From positions 1 through 48,882 of the forward strand of contig WAKG01000059.1 in assembly GCA_015523445.1 (NCBI GenBank): 48,882 nt of DNA, in the 5' to 3' direction. Below the pieces are notes generated by a model that was not told the origin of the DNA, ran no database searches, and saw only the letters and a list, made by a program, of their open reading frames with translations. The stretch's first letter is position 1. Every line of letters starts with the position of its first letter. The stretch comes from Desulfurococcales archaeon (lineage in GTDB: Archaea > Thermoproteota > Thermoprotei_A > Sulfolobales > Acidilobaceae). This document shows, in pieces, positions 27,616-28,762 of this stretch. Both the position numbers and the translations under genes were made by a program.

Positions 27616-27685
27616 CTTCGCATACCCAGGCCCCATACTTAATCCTTCCCCCGATACAGATGGGCTGGGTGGAGGGGAGCATGTA

Positions 27686-28762
27686 GTGTCTGACCCCACA
27701 GGCTCGGGCAGAAGGTTCCTCGAGGAGATCGACAAGTTCTGCGGTACTAAGAGGGCTTGGCACGTCAAGTATGAAGAGCCCACAGACCCCAGGTATGGAT
27801 GGCTTCCAACGGAGAGGCCTATAGAGAAGCACATAGAGTATGGAGTGATAAACCTAGACAAGCCGCCAGGGCCTACCAGCCATGAAGTGGTGGCTTGGAT
27901 AAAGAAGATGTTCAACCTAGAGCGGGCAGGACACGGGGGCACCCTAGGGCCCCTAGGCCAATGAGAAGGCCAGGGGCGGGGATATCCCAAGGTAACAGGT
28001 GTCCTGCCCGTAGCACTAGCCAGGATGACCAGGATCGTGGGCACCGTGATACACTCCAGCAAGGAGTACGTATGCGTGATGCAGCTTCACAAGCCGGTCA
28101 GCGAGGATAAGCTTAGAGAGGTAGTCTCCATGTTCATAGGCACAATATACCAGAAGCCTCCGGTTAGGAGCAGCGTCAGGAGGAGCCTAAGGAAGAAGAA
28201 GATAAACAAGATAGAGCTACTCGAGTACACGGGCAAGTACGCATTGATGGTCGTAGACTGCGAAGCCGGGACCTATATGAGGAAGCTGTGCTGGGATATA
28301 GGACTCATACTAGGTGTGGGGGCCCACATGAGAGAGCTGAGGAGGACTAGGACCGGCCCGTTCAGCGAGGATAGAGGGCTGGTTAGGCTCCAGGACCTTG
28401 CAGAGGCGCTGTATAGGTGGAGGGAGGAAGGTAAGGAGGACCTGCTACGTAGATATATACTGCCTGGTGAGTACACGGTCTGCGGTATCCCTAAGGTGGT
28501 GCTCAGGGATACGGCGGTGGAGAGCATAGTTCACGGCGCGACCCTTGCAGTCCCAGGTATAGCAATGATCCAGGAAGGGATAAAGAAGGGGGACCTCGTT
28601 GCCATGCACACACTTAAGGGGGAGCTGATAGGCCTAGCCAAGGCTATCATGACCACACAGGAGGTTCTAGAGTCTAGTAGAGGGGAGGCATTCAAGCCTG
28701 AGAGGGTAATCATGGAGCCAGGCCTATACCCTAGAGCGTGGAAGAAGAGATCCAGTGGCTAG
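27686..28762 (+). CDS. cbf5: Cbf5 pseudouridine synthase, intron-containing
   Basis: Catalytic subunit of H/ACA RNPs (dyskerin/TruB family), giving 346 residues once spliced. Exon 1 (27686-27947, GTG start, GGAGGGG upstream) encodes [20 protein letters not shown] and AGHGGTL; exon 2 (27984-28762) continues with [14 protein letters not shown], the Tyr motif GTIYQKPP, the Arg/Leu motif and a PUA domain. Without splicing, exon 1 stops at TGA 27962. Removal of the 36-nt intron restores the invariant catalytic motif GGTLDPKVTG, with the Asp codon (D88) split as G|AT. cbf5 introns are known in Aeropyrum and Sulfolobus. The 3' end overlaps the ThiL-like gene by 4 nt. Confidence 0.95.
27948..27983 (+). 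other. archaeal BHB intron in cbf5 mRNA
   Basis: A 36-nt intron with a clear bulge-helix-bulge. The central 4-bp helix is CCCU (27942-27945) with GGGG (27978-27981); the 3-nt bulges are 27946-27948 and 27982-27984, with cuts expected at 27947/27948 and 27983/27984. The intron stem is 27949-27954 with 27972-27977, extended by GGCC 27956-27959 with 27968-27971, loop 27960-27967. These cuts are the ones that restore the frame. The tRNA splicing endonuclease should process it. Confidence 0.93.

Follow-up and report, generated by a model that had tools for sequence, protein, structure and literature searches.

How a full-length Cbf5 could be produced from a gene whose reading frame is closed by a stop codon ahead of the active site is the question raised by the window analysed here, a 48,882-nucleotide stretch of a Desulfurococcales archaeon genome. 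The cbf5 gene occupies 27686-28762 on the + strand, stands last in a cluster of ribosomal-protein genes, downstream of adenylate kinase, L34e, cmk and L14e, and is interrupted by a 36-nt insert at 27948-27983. Without splicing, the frame runs from GTG 27686 to TGA 27962-27964, a total of 92 codons, and a downstream frame runs on to 28762. The break described in the earlier note, a 36-nt insert carrying a stop, was found at exactly the coordinates given there. Excision of 27948-27983 joins G27947 to A27984-T27985 as GAT, the codon for Asp88 of GHGGTLDPKVTG, and places the insertion point between bases 1 and 2 of this catalytic Asp codon. Removals of 36 nt shifted by one base either way produced no Asp and were rejected. 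The spliced product comprises 346 aa, and profile searches matched it to TIGR00425 CBF5 (409 bits, E 9e-123, cut-off 238) and to NF003280 (452 bits, cut-off 242), in agreement with the residue number and product length proposed earlier. Archaeal Cbf5 chains of solved structure aligned with it over almost the whole length (E 3e-114), and GGTLDPKV coincided in both. The intron shows why automatic gene callers split cbf5. The features of the locus are collected in Table 1.

Table 1. Features of cbf5 and of its predicted bulge-helix-bulge (BHB) in the window; a slash marks the predicted cut
Feature	Position	Strand	Remarks
Shine-Dalgarno-like GGAGGGGAG	27671-27679		Ahead of the cbf5 GTG at 27686
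cbf5 exon 1	27686..27947	+	GTG start; residues 1-87 and first base of the Asp88 codon
Central 4-bp helix, 5' strand CCCU, exonic	27942..27945	+	Within the Thr86-Leu87 codons
5' bulge A-G/G	27946..27948	+	From the fold; predicted cut after 27947
cbf5 BHB intron, 36 nt	27948..27983	+	From the fold, frame and relatives
Intron stem-loop	27949..27977	+	6 bp (27949-27954/27972-27977), one bulged base, 4 bp (27956-27959/27968-27971), 8-nt loop
In-frame TGA inside the intron	27962..27964	+	Ends unspliced translation at 92 aa
Central 4-bp helix, 3' strand GGGG, intronic	27978..27981	+	From the fold and relatives
3' bulge A-T/A	27982..27984	+	From the fold; predicted cut after 27983; AT/A commonest in relatives
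cbf5 exon 2	27984..28762	+	Second base of the Asp88 codon to the stop

Folding of 27925-28005 gave a structure of -40.3 kcal/mol (z -2.86; 1 of 200 shuffles equally good), in which the cuts predicted between nucleotides 2 and 3 of each bulge fell exactly on the borders that restore Asp88. All four central and all six inner pairs stood in register in only 9 of 200,000 shuffles of the insert. BHB pairing of a loose kind, however, occurred at 666 places in the window and is thus frequent by chance, so that the motif alone is no proof; the weight of the evidence rests on the coincidence of the BHB with the frame break and on its conservation in relatives. The structure, with a 4-bp central helix, two 3-nt bulges and a 6 plus 4-bp stem, had previously been called almost ideal, which is too strong, as the outer exon helix is relaxed. 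At this point the optimal fold opens into a 3x3 internal loop (27939-27941 versus 27982-27984) and, in strict register, C27940 faces C27986, a pair whose equivalent is also missing in 23 of 45 relatives. The fully paired outer exon helix by the 3' bulge, which marks the strict symmetrical hBHBh' tRNA-type motif, is therefore not formed, and the insert is, as modelled, a relaxed crenarchaeal BHB and not an ideal one. Base 1 of the intron (27948) is G, the sole such case of 45, with A in 41 and T in three; the 5' bulge is correspondingly AG/G in the window and AG/A in 39 of the 45 relatives.

A comparison with relatives, suggested in the earlier note as a check, was carried out. The closest named records to the window genome were Acidilobaceae/Desulfurococcales MAGs, the best at 93% protein identity. 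Forty-five distinct, verified sequences carried an intron at the same site and in the same phase, with sizes of 16-57 nt; genomes of the same genus had an insert of 35 nt there, and other genera of the family inserts of 16-57 nt. The central helix was always paired (180 of 180 cells across the 45 sequences, versus 57-76% when slid by 1-2 bases), and the inner stem displayed compensatory changes among relatives (GC/AT/TA/GT; CG/GC/TA). Across the order, an intron-type pattern was found in 131 of 214 genomes, some of them chance matches, versus about 15 genomes for a reversed-pattern control. From these alignments and counts, the cbf5 intron is present at the same place in most relatives of the window organism.

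The same lengths bear on whether cbf5 could be expressed by stop-codon readthrough or by frameshifting across the insert, a reading to which we give almost no credence. As a multiple of three with a single TGA, the 36-nt insert would keep the frame without removal, and genes of this kind have been mistaken for cases of frameshifting in the past. However, readthrough would replace the Asp codon, giving GGG CCC ... instead of GAT, and the lengths in the 45 sequences fall into all three modulo-3 classes (26/11/8), the 35-nt insert of the same genus included, so that readthrough cannot be general and was rejected. The assembly is a fragmented MAG of 164 contigs, which might suggest a pseudogene or an assembly error; against this, both exons are intact, the comparison with a same-genus genome gives 93% protein identity and 85% DNA identity, and homologous inserts occur in independent assemblies. 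The relatives already refute this explanation, the chance of which we judge to be minimal.

The exonic strand of the central helix lies in coding sequence, and its codons differ with the presence of the intron. Thr86-Leu87, whose codons contribute to both the helix and the bulge, is encoded by ACC-CTA in 41 of 45 intron-bearing genes and by many synonyms in intronless ones. Among order members chosen without an ACCCTAG-containing pattern, the Thr86 wobble base was C in 38 of 41 genes with the intron versus 6 of 16 without (Fisher p 4e-5), and the Leu87 wobble base was A in 39 of 41 versus 6 of 16 (Fisher p 1e-5), both p-values being inflated by the treatment of related sequences as independent. 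On these counts, it is only in genes with the intron that the choice of synonymous codons at Thr86-Leu87 is constrained.

The genome also encodes two EndA subunits and RtcB. The gene for the EndA catalytic subunit is full length (183 aa, E 9e-27). A further EndA-like subunit gene, of the structural type (L160 1468-1719, G000 C161; 83 aa, E 9e-6), runs to the end of its contig and is incomplete there. RtcB is present (E 1e-180), as for a hetero-oligomeric EndA working with a ligase. On folding of the transcript, the intron's 3' end would base-pair with the final bases of exon 1; a heteromeric (alpha2beta2-type) splicing endonuclease would cut after 27947 and 27983, inside the two bulges, and RtcB would join the exons, restoring the Asp88 codon and with it full-length Cbf5, while the intron would be thrown away, probably as a circle. 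Direct observations of this analysis are the broken frame, the structure with its conservation and covariation in relatives, the exon-level constraint and the endonuclease and RtcB genes; cutting and ligation in the window organism we infer from relatives, as the economical reading given the EndA genes and RtcB. The insert is almost certainly the BHB intron known from crenarchaeal cbf5 pre-mRNA, conserved and passed on vertically, and spliced to restore Asp88.

An intron in cbf5 pre-mRNA has been described previously from Desulfurococcales and Sulfolobales (Watanabe 2002; Yoshinari 2006; Yokobori 2009, PMC2738675), with published sizes of 16-44 nt (PMC2738675) and with cDNA and cleavage evidence from Aeropyrum, Sulfolobus, Desulfurococcus, Staphylothermus and others, so that the earlier statement that such introns are established in Aeropyrum and Sulfolobus was well founded. 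The window intron shares with them the host gene, the position between the first two bases of the catalytic Asp codon, the BHB-type structure with its predicted central helix, bulges and cuts, the lineage, the EndA and ligase genes and a size within the published range, 36 nt being also that of the Staphylothermus intron. In contrast to the known cases, it has an uncultured host, a loop sequence of its own, G in place of the usual A at base 1 and a single mismatched pair in its outer exon helix; in this weak outer helix it resembles most of the cbf5 introns of Yokobori et al., whose BHB they described as 'unconventional' (PMC2738675). The cutting motif is shared with archaeal tRNA and rRNA BHB introns, and the endonuclease and ligase presumably are too. 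In contrast to these, however, the window intron interrupts an mRNA, is not part of a tRNA fold and has no homing endonuclease ORF, which many rRNA introns possess. It is thus an ordinary, well-documented feature, correctly read, in a previously undescribed organism: an uncultured lineage that also keeps the one well-known crenarchaeal mRNA intron, placed at the active-site codon of an enzyme that modifies RNA.

Whether the intron does more than interrupt the gene is a separate matter. The earlier note held that unspliced mRNA could give only a 92-residue product without the active site and that splicing thereby gates pseudouridylation. The first part follows from the sequence, since active Cbf5 cannot be made from an mRNA in which the active site is not encoded; the gating itself is unproven and was overstated, as Pus10 is also encoded in the genome. 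We consider it improbable that the intron is a regulatory switch whose splicing efficiency sets the level of active Cbf5 and hence rRNA pseudouridylation, and a shade less probable still that temperature or growth alters the rate of its splicing, which in turn sets rRNA pseudouridylation. The intron is kept widely across the order and has been proposed in the literature as a 'negative regulator', and a regulatory element, if true, would explain both long retention and repeated loss. However, the loop and the length vary freely (16-57 nt) with only the splicing signal conserved, the intron has apparently been lost repeatedly without visible change to the gene, and the endonuclease, which in archaea at large acts on tRNA introns as well, is thus no dedicated switch. 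A search of the available literature for circular forms of the cbf5 intron or for regulation of its splicing yielded nothing. The persistence of the intron is explicable without a regulatory role.

Besides the synonymous-site constraint from RNA structure, the survey adds modestly to the known history of the intron through probable extra losses. On a Cbf5 protein tree of 79 rows, the intron state changes at least seven times, a provisional count as the tree was a quick one with many weak deep forks, and one that alone cannot separate gain from loss; a single gain with about six losses would fit it. Two of these losses, in the Ignicoccus-like and Pyrodictiaceae clades, were reported in 2009 (PMC2738675). 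Intronless cbf5 genes were also seen nested among intron-bearing relatives (L012/L020 in G008, L042, L046; L049; L052, L135). These apparently reflect one or two losses within a single genus of the family to which the window belongs (L012; L042 with L046) and two more within a family resembling Desulfurococcaceae (L049; L052 with L135), making losses beyond the two reported ones probable. L182 (G022) and L183 (G021), which belong to a different family of the order (f5, genus g23), likewise have no cbf5 intron at the site. G138, intronless by pattern, was rejected, its real cbf5 having a 20-nt intron, and for this reason pattern matches alone were not trusted for losses.

Whether a cbf5 intron may carry an endonuclease gene has been posed as an open question (PMC2738675). 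In 20 stretches from genomes without a short-intron pattern match, 18 had introns of 20-57 nt and two had none, and no endonuclease-bearing cbf5 intron was found; that none of the cbf5 introns read holds such a gene is a further modest addition, as is the extension of sizes to 57 nt. Introns of that length, in L031 (an Aeropyrum sp. MAG) and L170 (G032), exceed the published range, as do others of 47 and 52 nt (L175, L178, L179). A 27-nt intron type in L015, L074, L075 and L079 starts with TTCCCC and not AGCCC, and combines the same site and pairing scheme with another stem sequence.
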